Assembly: GCA_014380255.1 (NCBI GenBank)
Contig: JACMKG010000322.1
Location: 1-11,007 of the forward strand
DNA length: 11,007 nt
Direction: 5' to 3'
From: Prolixibacteraceae bacterium
GTDB lineage: Bacteria > Bacteroidota > Bacteroidia > Bacteroidales > Prolixibacteraceae
Each line of letters opens with the position of its first letter. The first letter of the stretch is position 1. Position numbers and translations under genes: made by a program. The notes beneath the pieces are model-generated. The model worked only from the letters and a program-made list of their open reading frames with translations. It searched no databases and had not been told where the DNA came from. Positions 2,202-11,007 of the stretch are shown piece after piece.

Positions 2202-2221
2202 ATATTATCAAATGCTATTAT

Positions 2222-2327
2222 CACAAAGTCTATATTAACTCTATGTCAAGTCTATACAAGGACTAACTTACGTTTTCAAATTATAGAGCTGACATAGACC
2301 TAATATAGAGTTAATATAGAGTTTGTG
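2222..2327. repeat. Inverted array of 11-bp units (TCTATR + 5 nt)
   Basis: The left block has three consecutive 11-bp units at 2229-2239, 2240-2250 and 2251-2261, each starting TCTAT. The right block has four units at 2282-2292, 2293-2303, 2304-2314 and 2315-2325, carrying the same motif in reverse complement. The two blocks can pair into a hairpin of about 35 bp with a 25-nt loop. The right arm carries one extra 11-bp unit; removing 11 bases makes the arms match with three differences by eye. It starts 20 bases after the flavoprotein stop codon and has no T-tract after it. Function is unknown; a transcript-end structure or a protein-binding array are possibilities. Confidence 0.75.
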
Positions 2328-2449
2328 GCTATGGAAGGTTATTTTCTAAAAGAAATCCCGTGCATGCCCTTTGGATGATCCATTCGTATTATCCACCGTG
2401 TTTTGTAATTGGTCCGATACCGTCCATGCCCCTTGCCCCAAGCTCCGGG

Positions 2450-2563
2450 CTAGTTAGTATTACATCGTCTCGACAATATTTCCGCTTGATCCTTAAAAAC
2501 AGGATTGCTTTCTCGTAGGTTGATAACATTTTTTTTACTAGCTTTAGTTGTTGGAATGCTCAT
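2450..2563 (-). other. Possible 37-residue small ORF or gene remnant
   Basis: On the minus strand an ATG at 2563-2561 opens a 37-codon frame ending at a TAG at 2452-2450. The peptide is basic and hydrophilic, with KASKKN near residue 7 and SRRC near the end. I do not recognise it. After the stop a second frame stays open for about twenty codons, which could mean a decayed longer gene. No promoter or ribosome-binding site supports it, and chance is a likely explanation. Confidence 0.15.
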
Positions 2564-2598
2564 AGGGGTAATGTTCTAAAAGGCTGTTATTTTGTGAA

Positions 2599-2626
2599 TT
2601 GTGAATTAATTTCATAAGTATCTTTT
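2599..2626 (+). promoter_or_regulatory. Candidate promoter of the sugar operon
   Basis: A TTG at 2599-2601 is separated by 17 bases from TATCTTTT at 2619-2626, a seven-of-eight match to TANNTTTG. The start codon at 2687 would then have a 5' UTR of about 55 nt. No clear operator palindrome was found between this site and the start codon. Confidence 0.35.
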
Positions 2627-2686
2627 AGTTTTATGAATTGTTCAGGTTAGGTTAAAGCAATTATTTCTCACTTAAAAATAAGTAGT

Positions 2687-3361
2687 ATGAAACGTAGCGA
2701 AATAAACCAGATTCTCTACCAAGCCAAAGCGTTTATGGCTGAGAAACAATTCTTCTTGCCCCCGTGGGCTTATTGGAGCTTTGACGACTGGAAAAAGAAT
2801 GAACAGGATGCCCGGGAAATAACACAGAATATGTTGGGCTGGGACATTACTGATTTCGGATCGGGCGATTTTTATACCAGGGGTTTGTTCTTATTTACCT
2901 TGCGCAATGGGAAACCGGATGTCGATAAAAAGCCTTATGCTGAAAAAATTATGATTGTGGAAGAGAGCCAGGAAACCCCGATGCACTATCATCAGTCGAA
3001 GATGGAAGATATTATCAACCGGGGAGGGGGAAACCTGGTGATCGAATTGTACAACGCCACTGCCGACAATCAATTTGACACCACTGCGGTTAATTTCAAA
3101 ATTGACGGTGTAAAGTGCACTGTAGAAGCAGGAGGAAAAGTTGTGCTTACCCCGGGTGAAAGCATTTGCCTGGAACAGGGAATGTATCACCGGTTTTACG
3201 GAGAAGCCGAAAAAGGGAAAGTCCTGGTGGGGGAAGTCAGTATGGTGAATGACGATAACTCTGATAACTTCTTTTATGAGTCTATCGGCCGTTTCCCCGA
3301 GATTGAAGAAGATGAGTTGCCCGTGCATTTGTTGGTCTCTGATTATCAAAAATATATATAA
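2687..3361 (+). CDS. D-lyxose isomerase (cupin-type ketol-isomerase)
   Basis: This is a metal-dependent cupin sugar isomerase of the D-lyxose isomerase family (EC 5.3.1.15), cytoplasmic. It interconverts D-lyxose and D-xylulose, and characterised members also convert D-mannose to D-fructose. The sequence shows the cupin metal site: H100 and H102 in the PMHYH turn, E107 five residues later, and H168 in GMYHRFYGE. This is the H-x-H-x4-E ... H spacing of the family. Its 224 residues match the E. coli O157-type enzymes (about 227), not the shorter B. subtilis YdaE type. It is the first gene of a three-gene operon, with only three bases before the kinase start. The neighbouring kinase and mannitol-1-phosphate dehydrogenase make mannose/fructose at least as likely as lyxose/xylulose for the real substrate; that is inference. 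Confidence 0.85.
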   Translation: MKRSEINQILYQAKAFMAEKQFFLPPWAYWSFDDWKKNEQDAREITQNMLGWDITDFGSGDFYTRGLFLFTLRNGKPDVDKKPYAEKIMIVEESQETPMHYHQSKMEDIINRGGGNLVIELYNATADNQFDTTAVNFKIDGVKCTVEAGGKVVLTPGESICLEQGMYHRFYGEAEKGKVLVGEVSMVNDDNSDNFFYESIGRFPEIEEDELPVHLLVSDYQKYI

Positions 3362-3364
3362 GCG

Positions 3365-4579
3365 ATGCCCTCCTCCAGATTGTTTCGAATATCGGGAACA
3401 GGCTGTGCCTTGGTGGATTATCTCTATAAACCAGTTTGTTTTACCGATACGCATTTTAAAAAGTATCTTTCAGAAAGCCCTGGGGATGGTGGACTCACGC
3501 CCGGGAAACTTGTTTTTAAAGATGAATTCGAGAAGTATTCAAAGGAAACGTATTTGCAGGTACGTAACGCTATTTCCGGGGGGAAAGATCCGGTTGCCTT
3601 GAATATTGGAGGCCCTTCCATTGTTTCCCTGATCCATGCGGCACAACTGTTAAACGGGTCCGGTACTGAAGTCTATTTTTATGGTAGCAAAGGAGCTGAT
3701 GGGGCAGGAGCTTTTATGGATGAGAAACTGAAGATGACCCCATTGAAAATTGGCTTGTATAAAACAGGGACTCAATACACTCCATTCACGGATGTTTTGT
3801 CTGATCCGGATTTTGAAGATGGTCAAGGTGAGCGAATATTTATTAATAATATCGGAGCAGCATGGGAATTTTTACCTGAAGATTTGGATGACTTATTCTT
3901 TCAGAGTGATATGGTTGTATTTGGTGGCACAGCTTTGGTGCCATTCATCCATCAGGATCTGGAAAATTTGCTTTCCAAAGCTAAATCGAATAACGCGATA
4001 ACTGTTGTAAATACTGTTTATGATTTCTTAAGTGAAAAACAAAGTTCTCAAAAGCCTTGGATGTTGGGCCGATCCATAGAAACCTACAAGTTTATAGATC
4101 TACTGATAACTAATATGGAAGAGGCTATTCGGTTAAGTGGAACCACATCCATTGATGAGGCCATCATGTTTTTTAAAAACACTGGTGTTGGAGCTGCAAT
4201 AATCACACATGGATCGAACCCTGTCTATTTTTTCGCTGATAATTTATTGTTCGGCACTATTCCGCAAACCAGCATGCCTGTTTCTGAAAAAGTGGTTAGA
4301 GAACTGATGCAGGACAAAGATAAATCGGGCGATACTACCGGATGCGGCGATAATTTTGCAGGAGGAGTGATAGCCTCAATTGCGATGCAGCTTACTGAAA
4401 ACCCGGGCGCTCAGCTCGATTTAGAGCTTGCGATAGCTCTTGGTGTAGCCTCAGGCGGATATGCGTGCTTTTATAATGGGGGAACGTTTTACGAGAATTT
4501 TCCCGGGCAAAAGAAGAGTTTGATTGATACTTTTTATCAGGACTATTTAAATCAAATTGGAGTGAGCGAAAACAGATAG
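3365..4579 (+). CDS. PfkB-family carbohydrate kinase, long form
   Basis: This is an ATP-dependent sugar kinase of the PfkB/ribokinase family, expected to phosphorylate a ketose or related sugar in the cytoplasm. Diagnostic motifs are the N-terminal GGPS at 82-85, the TNMEEA stretch at 249-254, and the C-terminal signature DTTGCGDNFAGG at 323-334, with D329 as the catalytic base. The usual motif is TTGAGD; a Cys replaces the Ala here. At 404 residues the protein is some 80-100 longer than a standard PfkB kinase. The extra length lies mainly before the GGPS motif (residues about 20-78) and between about 135 and 180, perhaps a lid or dimer element. It sits three bases after the isomerase and two before the dehydrogenase. 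From context its substrate could be fructose (giving fructose 6-phosphate) or xylulose. Motifs alone do not decide the sugar. Confidence 0.85.
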   Translation: MPSSRLFRISGTGCALVDYLYKPVCFTDTHFKKYLSESPGDGGLTPGKLVFKDEFEKYSKETYLQVRNAISGGKDPVALNIGGPSIVSLIHAAQLLNGSGTEVYFYGSKGADGAGAFMDEKLKMTPLKIGLYKTGTQYTPFTDVLSDPDFEDGQGERIFINNIGAAWEFLPEDLDDLFFQSDMVVFGGTALVPFIHQDLENLLSKAKSNNAITVVNTVYDFLSEKQSSQKPWMLGRSIETYKFIDLLITNMEEAIRLSGTTSIDEAIMFFKNTGVGAAIITHGSNPVYFFADNLLFGTIPQTSMPVSEKVVRELMQDKDKSGDTTGCGDNFAGGVIASIAMQLTENPGAQLDLELAIALGVASGGYACFYNGGTFYENFPGQKKSLIDTFYQDYLNQIGVSENR

Positions 4580-4581
4580 AA

Positions 4582-5733
4582 ATGAATCAAAAAAAAATGG
4601 TACTCTTTGGTGCAGGAAAAATAGGCCGCTCATTTATTGGCCAGTTATTCAGCCGTTCTGGATATGAAGTGGTTTTCATTGATATTAATCAGCAATTAAT
4701 TGAAAATCTAAACAAATACAGAAGATATAAGATCATCATTAAGCATGAGGATAGAAATGAGGTCCTGGATATTACGAATATAAGAGGCATTCATATAAAC
4801 GAGAAGGAAAAAGTCGCCGATGAATTGGCGAATGCCACTATTGCCGCTTTATCTGTTGGTCAACAAGGTCTTTCAACAGTCATACCGTTAATGGCTAATG
4901 CCTTGATAAAAAGAAGGAAACAATTTGGTGAATGCCCGCTCGACATTGTAATTGCTGAGAACATGCGCAATTCCGATCAATATTTAGCAGCGGAGTTAAA
5001 ACATTATCTTCCTTTAGATTATCCGTTTGAAGATCTGGTAGGATTGGTTGAGACCAGCATTGGAAAAATGGTGCCTATGATGTCTCAGAAAGATTTGGAT
5101 AATGATCCGCTTCAGGTATTTGCAGAACCTTACAATACATTAATCGTATCAAAAAAAGGGTTCAAAAACCCGGTACCTGAAATTATCGGGATGGAGCCGA
5201 AAGAGAATATAAAAGCATGGGTTGACCGAAAGCTATTTATTCATAATTTAGGCCATGCAACCATCGCTTACTTAGGTTTTCAGAAATATCCAAAAGCTAT
5301 TTATATATACGAAGTTCTTGAAGATGCTGAAATTCTTGATAAAACAAGGAAAACCATGATGCAATCGGCTGATATTCTAAGGGCGCTTTATCCCGGTGAA
5401 TTTAGTAGTAATCAGTTGGAAGCTCATATTGATGATTTATTATGCCGCTTCCAAAACAAAGCTCTTGGCGATACTATTTTCAGGGTTGGATGCGATCTGT
5501 ACCGCAAATTGAGCCCGGAAGACCGGTTAGTTGCACCTATAAATGCTGCAATAAGGCTCAATAAACCTTTTAATCTTATTTTTGATGTGCTAGTGGCTGC
5601 AATGTCATTCGGTGCCACTAATGAGAAGGGGGAAAAATATAAAGGAGACGAAAAGTTTTCAAAAGAATTGGGAAAAGGGAAAAATTATATTCTAAGAAAT
5701 ATTTGCAAGCTAATTCTTGACTTTCAAGGTTGA
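4582..5733 (+). CDS. mtlD: Mannitol-1-phosphate 5-dehydrogenase
   Basis: This is an NAD-dependent polyol-phosphate dehydrogenase of the polyol-specific long-chain dehydrogenase family. It interconverts D-mannitol 1-phosphate and D-fructose 6-phosphate in the cytoplasm. The Rossmann motif GAGKIGRSFIG is at 10-20, followed by an acidic VFID end of beta-2 at 31-34. The catalytic K-x4-N-x2-H signature is present as K217, N222 and H225, in the family-typical stretch ending GHATIAYLG. Its 383 residues equal E. coli MtlD (382). It closes the isomerase-kinase operon and starts two bases after the kinase stop. No mannitol PTS, phosphatase or regulator is adjacent, so the operon is unlike the classical mtlADR arrangement. 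The enzyme might make mannitol phosphate rather than consume it, or act on a pentitol phosphate. Confidence 0.88.
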   Translation: MNQKKMVLFGAGKIGRSFIGQLFSRSGYEVVFIDINQQLIENLNKYRRYKIIIKHEDRNEVLDITNIRGIHINEKEKVADELANATIAALSVGQQGLSTVIPLMANALIKRRKQFGECPLDIVIAENMRNSDQYLAAELKHYLPLDYPFEDLVGLVETSIGKMVPMMSQKDLDNDPLQVFAEPYNTLIVSKKGFKNPVPEIIGMEPKENIKAWVDRKLFIHNLGHATIAYLGFQKYPKAIYIYEVLEDAEILDKTRKTMMQSADILRALYPGEFSSNQLEAHIDDLLCRFQNKALGDTIFRVGCDLYRKLSPEDRLVAPINAAIRLNKPFNLIFDVLVAAMSFGATNEKGEKYKGDEKFSKELGKGKNYILRNICKLILDFQG

Positions 5734-5818
5734 AAATCACTTAGCTTTGGCAAAAAGCATTGCACAATGGCATTGTTTCATATTTTTATGCAATCGTACG
5801 CTCGTACCTTCTATTTCC

Positions 5819-5846
5819 CGTCTTCGTTCTCCGTTCTCCATTCTCC
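5819..5846. repeat. Heptanucleotide tandem repeat upstream of rlmN
   Basis: Two identical GTTCTCC heptads (5826-5832, 5833-5839) are followed by ATTCTCC (5840-5846) and preceded by a degenerate copy (5819-5825). The tract lies 67 bases before the rlmN -7 box. Copy number is low, so it may simply be low-complexity sequence. Confidence 0.45.
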
Positions 5847-5912
5847 CTGCACCTTGCCATTCAAACAATCCAATCCATTTCTCCGTTATATCCACTTGTA
5901 CTGAATGTTTTG

Positions 5913-5920
5913 TATTTTTG
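5913..5920 (+). promoter_or_regulatory. -7 box (TATTTTTG) of rlmN
   Basis: TATTTTTG matches the Bacteroidota -7 consensus TANNTTTG exactly and is followed by CAC, a plausible start-site region. It is 20 bases upstream of the rlmN ATG, so the leader would be only about 10-15 nt. A TTG at 5896-5898 is the only candidate -33 element, with a rather short spacer of 14 bases. Confidence 0.55.
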
Positions 5921-5940
5921 CACACTGAAAAAGATAAATT

Positions 5941-7282: not shown

Positions 7283-7335
7283 ACTGTTTGATTTTAATCT
7301 CCTACTCGTGTGGCTTTTCGGTTTCGCCCCGTTTT
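7283..7335 (-). repeat. Leader of the DUF4242 gene, copy A of a duplicated leader
   Basis: The 53 bases upstream of the ATG at 7282 align without gaps to 8346-8398, with about 45 identities counted by eye. Both copies contain AGGAGATTAAA 16 bases from the start codon and an ACGGGG near the 5' end. The duplication continues for roughly nine codons into the gene and then fades. Confidence 0.7.
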
Positions 7336-7654
7336 TTATTAGTGGTTGCTGGATTCCACTACTGCAGATGGGCTGAAGTTTTTATATGCTTAAAATTAAG
7401 GAATTTATCGATGAGAAGCAATAGTAGAAGATAGAAATATCTTTTATTTTGGCTGTTGATTGAAAGCCAGGAATCATGGAAGAGCCTTAACAGGGAATAG
7501 CCATCATTGCATAGTAAATGTTATTAATTTAGAGAAAATTCAAGGTATTCTCTTAGAGACCTGGTTGCTTGGTGGCATGAAAAAATAGCCACAAGGACAT
7601 CATAGCACTAAGTCTAAAAAAGAAAATATTAACCTAATAAACATGTTTTTACCT
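7336..7654. other. Gap between DoxX and DUF4242 genes
   Basis: No gene is seen. The stretch is AT-rich. It has a weak hairpin (TAGTGG at 7340-7345 pairing with CCACTA at 7356-7361, ten-base loop) just upstream of the duplicated leader. No exact TANNTTTG box was recognised on the minus strand, so whether the DUF4242 gene has its own promoter remains open. Confidence 0.4.
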
Positions 7655-8345: not shown

Positions 8346-8398
8346 GCTGTTTAAATTTAATCTCCTGCTCGTTTGGCTTTTCAGGTTCACCCCGTTTT
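8346..8398 (-). repeat. Copy B of the duplicated DUF4242 leader
   Basis: This is the counterpart of 7283-7335 (about 45 of 53 bases identical by eye). It begins one base after the TPR gene stop codon and runs up to the ATG of the truncated copy. The leader is as well preserved as the first nine codons and better preserved than the rest of the remnant. Confidence 0.7.
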
Positions 8399-8399
8399 C

Positions 8400-10130
8400 T
8401 TAATTTGTTTTTATCCTTGAATTCGACAATTCAACATCAGCGGTAGCCCATGAACTGGCCAGCTTTTGATCCATTTCCTTCAATTTATTGAGTTCATTTA
8501 ATTTCGCGTAGGCCAGTTTCATCCCATGATGAGCCCATCCATTTTTGGGTAGCCTGTTTAAATCTTCTTCAAAGGTTGTGAGGGCATCCCTGTATTTTCC
8601 TGCTTCAATCTGAACGGCTCCCAAATGATGCCTTACCGAAAAGAACCAATCCGGAGGCTCGTTGTAATTCAATTGATCCTCCATCTCCACTGCTTCTTTC
8701 AAAAGTGCAATGCTTTGATCGTAGCTTGCTTCGCTGGCCATGATTTCTGCTTTGAGCACCCTTTGGGCAATTTGCAATAAGTCGTAAACAGAGTTAATTT
8801 CCCAAATGGTAAGTTCCTTCAGGCTTTCATCGCTGGCATACTTTTCCAGTATTTGCAACTCTTTCTTGCTGTTCGTTAAATCGTTCAGTCCCAGGTAAGC
8901 CATTCCCCGGGCATAATGTCTGACCGCCTCAGGGTACTTAAGGCTTGTATCCCGGTTGCTCATTTCAAGAATTTCCTTCCATTTCCCAAATTTCACATAC
9001 ACGTTGTAGGGTATGGTGTAATAATGCTGAAGGGTTCCCCAGCCGGGTTCTTTCATAAGCTGCTGGTTGGCATGTTCAGCCGTTTTTCGGGCCGCCAGAA
9101 TGGCCCACTGGCTGTTTCCTTCCAGGGTTGCCGTAGCAGCCATAAAATGATAATTGTGGGGATAATAAGCCAAAGGATAAGCTCCCTGTGCATTGCACAC
9201 AGATACATAGGCACTATCTTTTTTGATGGCCTGTATATTCGACAGGGTTCCTTTATGGTAATCCCCCGTTCGGATATAAATATGCGATGGCATATGAAGC
9301 AGATGACCCGCTCCCGGTACCAATCCTTCATCAAATAACTGCGCGCTTTTTAATCCTTTTTCAGGTTCACTGGAAGCCTCTACTGCATGCATGTAAAAAT
9401 GATGGGCACCGCAATGTTTGGGATTGATTTTAAGCACCTGATCCAATGTAGCAAGTATTTCAGGGGTCCACTCCTTGGCCTGGCCCTGTTTGTCAAACAG
9501 ATCCCAGGGGTGCAGGTTCATTTGTGATTCCGCATACAAGGTACCAATATCAGCATCATTGAGAAAGGCTTTAAAAACTTCTCCCATGGCTTTTGAATAA
9601 GCCACATCCAATTCTATTCGATCCTCTACCGGCTCTTTCACATACCTTTTGGCTAAAGCATTGATCAATGCAATCTCCTTGGTCGTCGAATTGGTTTTTG
9701 ATAAGGTGATTGCTTTTTGGATCGCTTCATAAGCTCTCTCGTAATTGTCACTTTCCATTCCCGCATTATAGTTGGGACCCAAGACATAGGCATACCCCCA
9801 GAAAGCCATCGCGCAATTGGGGTCAAGCTTGGAGGCATAATAAAATGAACGTGCCGCCTCAGCATGGTTGAACCCGTAGGCCAGTACCAGCCCCTGATTA
9901 AAGTACTTTTGAACTAATTTATTATCAGTGGAAATAGGAAAGTCTACGACATCAAGGCCTTCAAACAAAGGAGCTTTATTGTCCGTTTTATACCATTCGG
10001 TATCGGTTGGGAAAAAGTTGCAGATGAATTGATTAACCCCGACGCTCTCAGATGACTGTTTGTTTACGTTTTTGCATCCTCCTATCATAAAGACGAGAAC
10101 AACAATGCCGGATAAGGGAAGAATTTTCAT
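8400..10130 (-). CDS. TPR-repeat lipoprotein with conserved His motifs
   Basis: This is a secreted, lipid-anchored protein of 576 residues when started at the ATG at 10130. That start gives a proper lipoprotein signal: MKILP, a hydrophobic stretch to about residue 15, and a lipobox ending IGGC with the modified Cys at 19. The longer frame to 10175 begins with TTG and puts 15 charged and mixed residues before the signal, so I reject it. Tetratricopeptide-like helical pairs are seen at about 73-103 (GFNHAEAARSF), 404-430 and 470-541 (GKYRDALTTFEEDL). Between them are motifs of an uncharacterised TPR family: HPWDLFD at 207-213, HHFYMHAVEAS at 243-253, GHLLHMPSHIY at 275-285 and YYPHNYHF at 322-329. 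The His clusters suggest a metal or ligand site; that is inference. It lies upstream of the DUF4242 remnant. Confidence 0.8.
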   Translation of the reverse strand: MKILPLSGIVVLVFMIGGCKNVNKQSSESVGVNQFICNFFPTDTEWYKTDNKAPLFEGLDVVDFPISTDNKLVQKYFNQGLVLAYGFNHAEAARSFYYASKLDPNCAMAFWGYAYVLGPNYNAGMESDNYERAYEAIQKAITLSKTNSTTKEIALINALAKRYVKEPVEDRIELDVAYSKAMGEVFKAFLNDADIGTLYAESQMNLHPWDLFDKQGQAKEWTPEILATLDQVLKINPKHCGAHHFYMHAVEASSEPEKGLKSAQLFDEGLVPGAGHLLHMPSHIYIRTGDYHKGTLSNIQAIKKDSAYVSVCNAQGAYPLAYYPHNYHFMAATATLEGNSQWAILAARKTAEHANQQLMKEPGWGTLQHYYTIPYNVYVKFGKWKEILEMSNRDTSLKYPEAVRHYARGMAYLGLNDLTNSKKELQILEKYASDESLKELTIWEINSVYDLLQIAQRVLKAEIMASEASYDQSIALLKEAVEMEDQLNYNEPPDWFFSVRHHLGAVQIEAGKYRDALTTFEEDLNRLPKNGWAHHGMKLAYAKLNELNKLKEMDQKLASSWATADVELSNSRIKTN

Positions 10131-10652
10131 CTTTTCTTTTATTCGTTGATATAGCGTGAATGGGGCATTTTTCAAAAGAAAGGTTTAAAAAAGACAATAC
10201 GAGATTGGATATTCTTAAGTTACCAGTGGTCTCTACTAATTTAAGGCTTCATTCAAGGGGCTTTTCCTTAAACGAAGTGCGTTTAGTCAATGGTTAAGCC
10301 ATAAAAACTTCCTTCATTAACTTCCTTGTTTTTCTGAGGTTATTCGAAGGTCGTTCGATGGTTGTTCGAAGGTCGTTCGAAGGTTGTTCGTTGCCGGACG
10401 AATAATCTTCTAACAACTATCGAATCACTTTCGTATGATTTTCCAATCACCAATGAAAATAAGGTGAAAGGTCTTAAGGAAGAGAATGATAAATACACTT
10501 CTTACCAACGGCTAGTCAGATAAGAACCCTTTGTGTAAAGTAAGTTTCTTCGGGTAAAAGGCAAATGCCCGACCAGTCAGCAATGGATTGATACGGCACT
10601 AAAACAGGGAATCAATAATCGGGATAAGTCAACTCCTTGAAGGGGAAAATCG
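10131..10652. other. Long intergenic region around the second 11-bp array
   Basis: This 522-bp stretch has no supported gene. Its centre is the inverted 11-bp array at 10330-10459. CTTCCTT occurs at 10308-10314 and again at 10321-10327, and its complement AAGGAAG is at 10476-10482, so the fold may extend outward. No exact TANNTTTG box was found on either strand. Confidence 0.5.
10330..10459 (+). repeat. Inverted 11-bp-period array, possible structured RNA
   Basis: The left block has four good 11-bp units of consensus TTCGAWGGTYG at 10343-10353, 10354-10364, 10365-10375 and 10376-10386, then a degenerate one at 10387-10397. The right block (10398-10448) keeps the 11-bp phase in reverse complement with more divergence. 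Pairing base 10392-n with 10397+n gives a hairpin around a six-base loop (10392-10397). Over the first 51 positions I count about 35 Watson-Crick pairs, 8 G.U pairs if read as plus-strand RNA, and 8 mismatches. A few further pairs extend to 10330/10459. It lies downstream of the partial minus-strand gene and upstream of the TPR gene. Whether it is transcribed is not known. Confidence 0.65.
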
Positions 10653-11007
10653 CTAATTGACAATAGTTAACTTCAGTTCTTTTTGAGCGGCGTAATTCTT
10701 GATTTCATCCATGGTAGCCTGATCTGGTAAAGCCAGATTTCCTCCATCACCCTGAACTCTGACAATCCATGAGATATATTCGTTCGTTGGAAACTTATCA
10801 AGCAACAGTTTAAGGGAATCTTTTCCCACCACGGTAGTTTTATTTGCAATCACCTCCTTGTACGATTTCACCCTGTTGGTTCCGGGTAGGATGGAATAAT
10901 TCCAATCATCTCCGTTGGCCCAACTGTACAATTCCCATCCTTTCATTAAATGAATAAAGGAAGAGGTAGCCCCAGTGTTTTCACTGATTAGCAAGGTGAC
11001 AACCAGG
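10653..11007 (-). CDS. Unrecognised small protein, 5' end outside the window
   Basis: The frame is open from the window edge to a TAG at 10655-10653, giving 117 visible residues. The first visible residues (LVVTLLIS) could be the end of a signal peptide, so the true start lies beyond 11007; the internal TTG at 10994 need not be used. Recognisable stretches are MKGWELYSWANGDDWNYS, then LPGTNR, GKDSLKLLLDKFP, WIVRVQ and a C-terminal helix DEIKNYAAQKELKL. The W/Y-rich start followed by an alpha/beta-looking tail suggests a small compact domain. I recall similar hypothetical proteins in this phylum but know no function. Confidence 0.7.
   Translation of the reverse strand, partial: LVVTLLISENTGATSSFIHLMKGWELYSWANGDDWNYSILPGTNRVKSYKEVIANKTTVVGKDSLKLLLDKFPTNEYISWIVRVQGDGGNLALPDQATMDEIKNYAAQKELKLTIVN

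Follow-up and report, generated by a model that had tools for sequence, protein, structure and literature searches.

A facing 11-bp-period array in a Prolixibacteraceae genome belongs to a dispersed repeat family that is probably linked to DUF6266 genes

Results

Two facing arrays in one window

The window, a stretch of 11,007 nucleotides from a Prolixibacteraceae bacterium (GenBank assembly GCA_014380255.1, contig JACMKG010000322.1), holds two intergenic arrays of 11-bp units in facing blocks, whose unit sequences are unrelated to each other (Table 1). The gene beyond the left block of array 2 is not a DUF6266 gene and is taken as an unrelated neighbor; ORF inspection, Pfam and a remnant search found neither a DUF6266 gene nor a convincing remnant of one in the window. 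The rlmN protein shares up to 90-91% identity with its counterparts in six genomes from the family of the Draconibacterium mangrovi genome, which makes the window a close relative of that family group.

Table 1. Arrays and flanking genes in the window
Feature	Position	Strand	Description	Evidence
Array 1	2222..2327	.	facing 11-bp blocks, unit about AACTCTATATT; arms 2222-2255 and 2294-2327	TRF, inverted repeats
Gene beyond left block	8400..10130	-	three tetratricopeptide models weakly matched, all below cut-off	
Array 2, left block	10338..10392	+	five 11-bp units, consensus GGTYRTTCGAW, core TTCGA	sequence, TRF, F1 match
Array 2, center GCCG	10393..10396	.	loop of predicted + strand hairpin	RNAfold of 10330-10460
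Array 2, right block	10397..10451	-	five diverged inverted 11-bp units	sequence, inverted repeat I1, F1 alignment
Other flanking ORF	10653..10994	-	no Pfam family at E 0.001	

Read directly, the five left units of array 2 are, in order, GGTTATTCGAA, GGTCGTTCGAT, GGTTGTTCGAA, GGTCGTTCGAA and GGTTGTTCGTT. TRF reports this block at period 11 (10343-10390, score 75) and at period 22 (10337-10390, score 94). At period 11 the window's best segment scores 27.0, against a maximum of 10.5 in 100 dinucleotide shuffles; periods 9, 10 and 12 score 7, 6 and 7, within their own dinucleotide-shuffle range, and the highest of the remaining periods from 5 to 20, scored without shuffles, is period 7 at 15.0. 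When the right region is reverse-complemented, the left block matches it at 69% over 55 bases, compared with at most 61% in 2000 shuffles of that region. The facing 11-bp-period array proposed by a sequence-only reading of this DNA is therefore real.

The two arms of array 2 differ in regularity: the left units are 0.83 alike and the right units 0.56, and in the alignment of relatives from the F1 family, described below, the same arm is again the less regular. Sliding the arms past each other by one or two units gives 68% and 67%, nearly equal to the aligned value since the units repeat, and mirrored unit pairs are 0.66 alike against 0.61 for non-mirrored pairs (four units compared). This near-equality suggests that the arms have a unit in common more than they are complementary unit by unit. 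The + strand is predicted by RNAfold to fold at -52.5 kcal/mol (z -6.7), and the - strand at -35.4 kcal/mol (z -3.6). An Rfam search of the window at E up to 1 gave no match at the array, the only hit being DUF805 RNA (RF03081) elsewhere. That motif lies on the minus strand at 7295-7364 (73.1 bits), directly upstream of an SCO4226-like gene, and a second minus-strand copy at 8358-8426 scores 45.4 bits, below the cut-off of 51.1.

In array 1 the arms are 79% identical (shuffle maximum 70%), mirrored units are 0.70 alike versus 0.67 for non-mirrored ones, and the predicted fold is about equal on both strands. No array family matched it (best E among the compared loci, 0.43). The oxidoreductase gene at 1521-2201 has a 3' end that matches the rlmN loci of relatives, about 120 bases before rlmN in L136. 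In the window, positions 2202-5940, holding array 1 and a lyxose-isomerase/kinase/dehydrogenase operon, separate this gene from rlmN, which likely reflects an insertion of about 3.7 kb.

Unit families and their abundance in relatives

Two related genomes, G007 and G008, hold several families of such arrays, each with its own unit: F1 (GGTNRTTCGAA), Fb (core GTGTA), F2 (CTTTCTGTAAG), Fa (CTGTCRTACCA in the outside units and ACAAATTCGTA in the inside units) and others. Array 2 matches the F1 arrays of one G008 locus (L285/L334) at 78.9% over 109 bp (E 1e-20), and the gene-linked F1 arrays L336 and L337 at 70% (E 6e-8 and 9e-6). By these alignments, array 2 is a member of the dispersed F1 family; its flanks matched nothing in the loci compared (best E 0.88). 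The F1 pattern, which matches several times within an array, has 26 hits in G007 and 95 in G008; six other relatives have none. The earlier proposal that unrelated units on a shared geometry define a class of elements is strongly supported by these findings, with several families in relatives keeping to one 11-bp ruler.

Some G007 copies of F1 lie within an element with inverted ends near GGGTCTGCTGAAAAAC, of about 620 bp in L239 and L323. TA adjoins the ends of this element in most copies and is absent on the left of L239. One divergent F1-like array, L307 (G008:C389), has a palindrome that extends past the 11-bp units, with matching outer ends. Around the Fa arrays L230, L234, L240, L241 and L242, apparent common motifs extend over about 100 bp outside the arrays on both sides; these were judged by eye and are weak in alignment.

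Period-11 arrays are abundant in G007 and G008, at 85 and 68 per Mb; in the other genomes sampled they are few or missing altogether. In stretches not chosen for arrays, and with counts made per arm so that a facing pair usually counts as two, period 11 or 22 accounts for 22 of 45 tandem arrays in G007 (260 kb), 24 of 89 in G008 (353 kb) and 2 of 8 in G014 (199 kb), compared with 0 of 15 in G006 (420 kb), 0 of 8 in G025 (102 kb) and 0 of 1 in G013 (120 kb). A strict scan of the window together with 80 other loci, most of them labelled Bacteroidota (1.62 Mb in total), detected two period-11 arrays, both in the window; a looser scan of the 80 loci placed 3 of 71 tandem arrays at period 11 or 22. 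Three TTCGA cores spaced by 11 bp, a pattern that detects a single core type only, are present in 9 of 140 family genomes, with 105/112 matches in G008 and 36/30 in G007; the backwards pattern gives at most 3 per strand. Of the 27 placeable array entries in these unselected stretches, 23 lie between ORFs. The four exceptions, all in G007, fall inside ORFs of at least 100 codons called by a simple script, and three of them belong to L237, an array with an N run. Arrays of period 8 and 9, facing or tandem, occur at L162, L165 and L239 (G008, G007), and perhaps form a related class.

Arrays upstream of DUF6266-type genes

One G007 copy of F1 lies just upstream of an intact ORF of 207 residues (L243). 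F1 arrays stand directly upstream of intact DUF6266-type genes in both genomes: L243 in G007, the same gene as L336, and L315 in G008, the same gene as L337. The upstream regions of L336 and L337 match all ten F1 arrays and array 2 of the window, while those of two further G007 genes match only the Fa arrays (L351, 7 of 7) and only the Fb arrays (L360, 4 of 4). When these four upstream regions were compared with the two window arrays and 21 others drawn from three families, no cross-match between families appeared at E 1e-3. Each family was seen with one G007 gene, which does not prove a single gene each, and families do mix: L351 carries an Fa array but also has a copy of F1 about 430 bp upstream.

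The association extends beyond F1. We fetched 30 genes of this type, 28 of which had enough upstream sequence for a period spectrum. Upstream of these 28, the best segment scores 17.5 on average at period 11, whereas each of the remaining periods from 5 to 20 averages 4.6-5.4. The best period is 11 in 20 of the 28 genes, four of which score only 8-11, and another period in the remaining eight. Three of these eight exceptions are the G120 genes L346, L357 and L364; the two of them that were scanned are both good matches to the DUF6266 profile. Among the 23 genes outside G007 and G008, a set that leaves out the six genes of those genomes and the truncated L350, 13 carry a period-11 segment in the 300 bp before the gene, and such segments occur at 1.88 per kb upstream versus 0.04 per kb in the remaining 67 kb of these loci. 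Across the class, where the listing holds 26 matches for 295 genomes with the family present in 15, we took 20 further upstream regions; period 11 is best in 10 of the 20 and period 10 in 4, several of them weak. The enrichment of period 11 over 9, 10 and 12 anticipated by the sequence-only reading is thus seen in G007, in G008 and upstream of DUF6266 genes. Unit sequences vary among these genes, and the 11-bp spacing is what they have in common.

Not every linked array is a facing pair. L375 has a long direct array (period-11 score 46) with a best inverted score of 11 and fold z values of 0.2 and -0.9. The repeats upstream of the DUF6266 genes L384 (G008) and L372 (G391) have period 10, not 11. 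A TAnnTTTG box, which we take to be the Bacteroidota -7 promoter box, lies within 140 bp of the gene on the sense strand in 8 of 18 cases and on the antisense strand in 4 of 18, a weak difference. Only four of the 9 genomes with TTCGA arrays are also among the 15 with the protein. Overall, array 2 is very probably linked to DUF6266 genes through its family.

The DUF6266-type protein

The 207-residue ORF of L243 has no Pfam or NCBIfam match, and its relatives match DUF6266 (PF19781) with scores from well above to below the Pfam gathering score of 23.4. Of the 11 linked proteins that were scanned, three (L346, L357 and L360) exceed this score and L355 is at the cut-off; the F1-linked L337 (17.1), L338, L339 and L354 are below it, and L341, L343 and L243 have no DUF6266 match at E 1. 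One relative, P0032, is named 'DUF6266 family protein' by its source. Of 140 family genomes, 15 have the protein. G007 holds at least 22 matches and G120 at least 19 (22 of the candidates were scored in each of these two), G008 holds 9, G077 and G138 hold 6 each, and the ten remaining genomes hold fewer.

A fairly confident AlphaFold2 model (mean pLDDT 86.7, pTM 0.72) predicts three strands and three helices followed by a fibronectin-III-like domain. The N-terminal half alone has no convincing match to any solved fold, and Pfam matched no DNA-binding family among the 11 linked proteins. The name DUF6266 was found in no paper of the open-licence literature searched. A phage record, OP209177.1 (L386, 8038 bp), has two neighboring ORFs with DUF6266 matches (E 6e-5 and 0.0024), just or well below the cut-off, and also encodes a G2P-type replication protein. 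The first of these ORFs has 2301 relatives; among the 120 listed, one of them without a length, no longest contig exceeds 11.6 kb. No period-11 array was found upstream of the OP209177.1 relative. A link of the chromosomal DUF6266 genes to small replicons is worth a look.

Hairpins or rows of sites

Homologous copies allow the arms to be compared for paired changes. From 65 F1 matches, one orientation per element was chosen by hand and copies that were truncated or contained N were left out, as were L298 and L307, which are complete but divergent. This gave 34 copies for comparison of folds and, for covariation, 22 five-unit copies in a gapless alignment that includes the window. Conservation in F1 consists of short cores every 11 bp in both arms. 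In the 22 copies the mirrored hairpin pairs 79.4% of cells, and this mirrored pairing exceeds that of slid partners, as expected if both arms carry one unit. Arm-to-arm covariation is 0.134 versus 0.128 in shuffles, of which 91 of 500 are as high, and two-sided changes number 14 pairs versus 13.8. The compensatory changes in homologous loci that the earlier reading had set as a test therefore do not rise above shuffles in these copies, and because arm-to-arm covariation is absent a conserved RNA hairpin is not supported for F1.

Other families are built differently. Mirrored units are 0.75-0.89 alike in Fa, versus 0.55-0.64 for non-mirrored ones (seven elements, L205 and L240 being the same one), and 0.96 versus 0.61 in L136, whereas Fb has only a slight excess (0.57-0.76 versus 0.56-0.69). 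Some families are thus long palindromes and others facing rows of a common site. In 31 of 34 F1 copies the better fold is that of the strand on which the regular arm comes first, the one antisense to the gene; this asymmetry deserves little weight, since the copies are related and their base composition is skewed. The upstream regions of several other genes have no significant fold.

Orphan copies and gene remnants

Some arrays stand beside pieces of the gene. L331 is an F1 array with the start and end of the gene alongside, and L237 has a C-terminal piece of the gene beside an Fa array; at least these two orphans retain parts of a gene that has an internal deletion. The unit common to L243 of G007 and L315 of G008 runs from the array to the stop codon of the gene (L243 10094-10865, 74.7%). 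On our best reading, array 2 would likewise be an orphan copy of an array that, where the gene survives, stands immediately on the 5' side of a DUF6266 gene.

Around the two intact F1 genes no paired element ends were found, each having one weak single match with 4 mismatches allowed. At array 2, no MITE-type ends were recognised among the short inverted repeats of the window.

Discussion

The reading that we prefer, at a probability of roughly 0.5, is that the array is a cooperative protein-binding array with one site per helical turn, probably the operator of the DUF6266 gene, which has spread as gene-less relics. Each 11-bp unit would be one protein-binding site, about one per helical turn, and copies of the protein would assemble cooperatively from both sides along a single face of the DNA. 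The binder would most likely be the product of the adjacent DUF6266 gene, in which an unassigned N-terminal segment of three strands and three helices stands ahead of the fibronectin-III-like domain, and the bound proteins would probably control that gene's own promoter. Units of array and gene would then have spread, with genes lost by internal deletion or with units carried by other mobile elements, and free arrays such as array 2 would be what remained. The binding mechanism within this reading is tentative, drawing on gene linkage and spacing. The idea, already present in the earlier reading, that conserved parts lie on one face of a duplex at each turn remains plausible, for DNA more than for RNA.

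That the arrays act as RNA, forming a long hairpin in which each A-form turn presents one recognition feature, appears improbable. The strong + strand fold of array 2, the unit-by-unit mirrored arms of Fa and L136 and the strand asymmetry of the F1 folds would fit such a role, the last of these not being predicted by plain operator DNA, although shared ancestry or base composition may explain it. However, the 22 F1 copies do not covary above shuffles, both window arrays are barely mirrored, the favored F1 strand is antisense to the gene, L375 has a direct array with no strong facing arm, several upstream regions lack a significant fold, and period 10 is best in 4 of 20 genes. Still less credible, and already disfavored, is that tandem slippage and quasipalindrome correction alone make and keep the arrays with no function: one arm is often far more uniform than the other, as in array 2, but slippage should favor neither 11 bp across unrelated units nor a site just upstream of one gene family.

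A further account, which we hold possible but doubtful, takes the arrays as the recognition ends of a REP- or MITE-like mobile element, of which the DUF6266 unit would be the full form and the orphans deleted, mobilised derivatives, with any operator role secondary or absent. The many dispersed F1 copies in G007 and G008, the patchy occurrence of the TTCGA pattern (9 of 140 genomes), the orphans L331 and L237 with their gene pieces, and the common unit of array and gene ending at the stop codon all fit mobility. MITEs are dispersed, internally deleted relics, and some G007 copies of F1 resemble them in lying between inverted ends, mostly TA-flanked, within the element of about 620 bp. Against this stand the two intact F1 genes, which lack a pair of those ends; no transposase family matched among the proteins scanned, and no ends were recognised at array 2.

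Known systems share parts of this arrangement. RAYTs are tyrosine transposases of the IS200/IS605 kind that lie between two REPs, which are short hairpins (PMC2817692). The likeness is a gene with its own palindromic repeats, many orphan copies and repeats that differ by gene (PMC2817692); here, three families in G007 and the F1 family in G008 combine a gene with cognate repeats that are scattered through its genome. The difference is that here a DUF6266 protein is paired with 11-bp-period arrays on its 5' side, and no Pfam transposase matched among the 11 linked proteins scanned. In the ParR-parC system of plasmid R1, 11-bp sites are likewise arrayed at the gene's promoter; R1 ParR needs at least two 11-bp repeats, and cooperative binding is told for the pSK41 and pB171 proteins (PMC9426499). 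Unlike that system, the arrays described here have facing blocks, many chromosomal copies and many unit sequences, and neither ParM nor ParR (actin-like and ribbon-helix-helix) matched among the 11 linked proteins or the ten window proteins scanned. As far as tested, then, the array-gene system falls outside RAYT/REP and ParMRC as defined by their proteins. The TAACTGA heptamer repeats of Beggiatoaceae, Cyanobacteria and some Bacteroidetes are likewise direct repeats scattered between genes, and in one genome most of them lie just before start codons; they differ in having a fixed heptamer, 7-nt steps and linked genes whose functions follow no pattern (PMC4679880).

More speculatively, and with considerable doubt, the array-linked DUF6266 proteins might be new sequence-specific nucleic-acid binders whose target has repeatedly changed while the one-turn ruler was kept, the gene and its array forming a new self-spreading unit that litters some Bacteroidota chromosomes with free binding arrays. 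Apart from this, the linkage connects a protein family of unstudied function with one particular DNA feature, through which the role of DUF6266 can be tested directly. Many gene-array pairs with different units and fixed spacing would lend themselves to studying changes in a binding code, and the linkage would also explain why this class of repeats abounds in a few genomes yet is rare in their close relatives.
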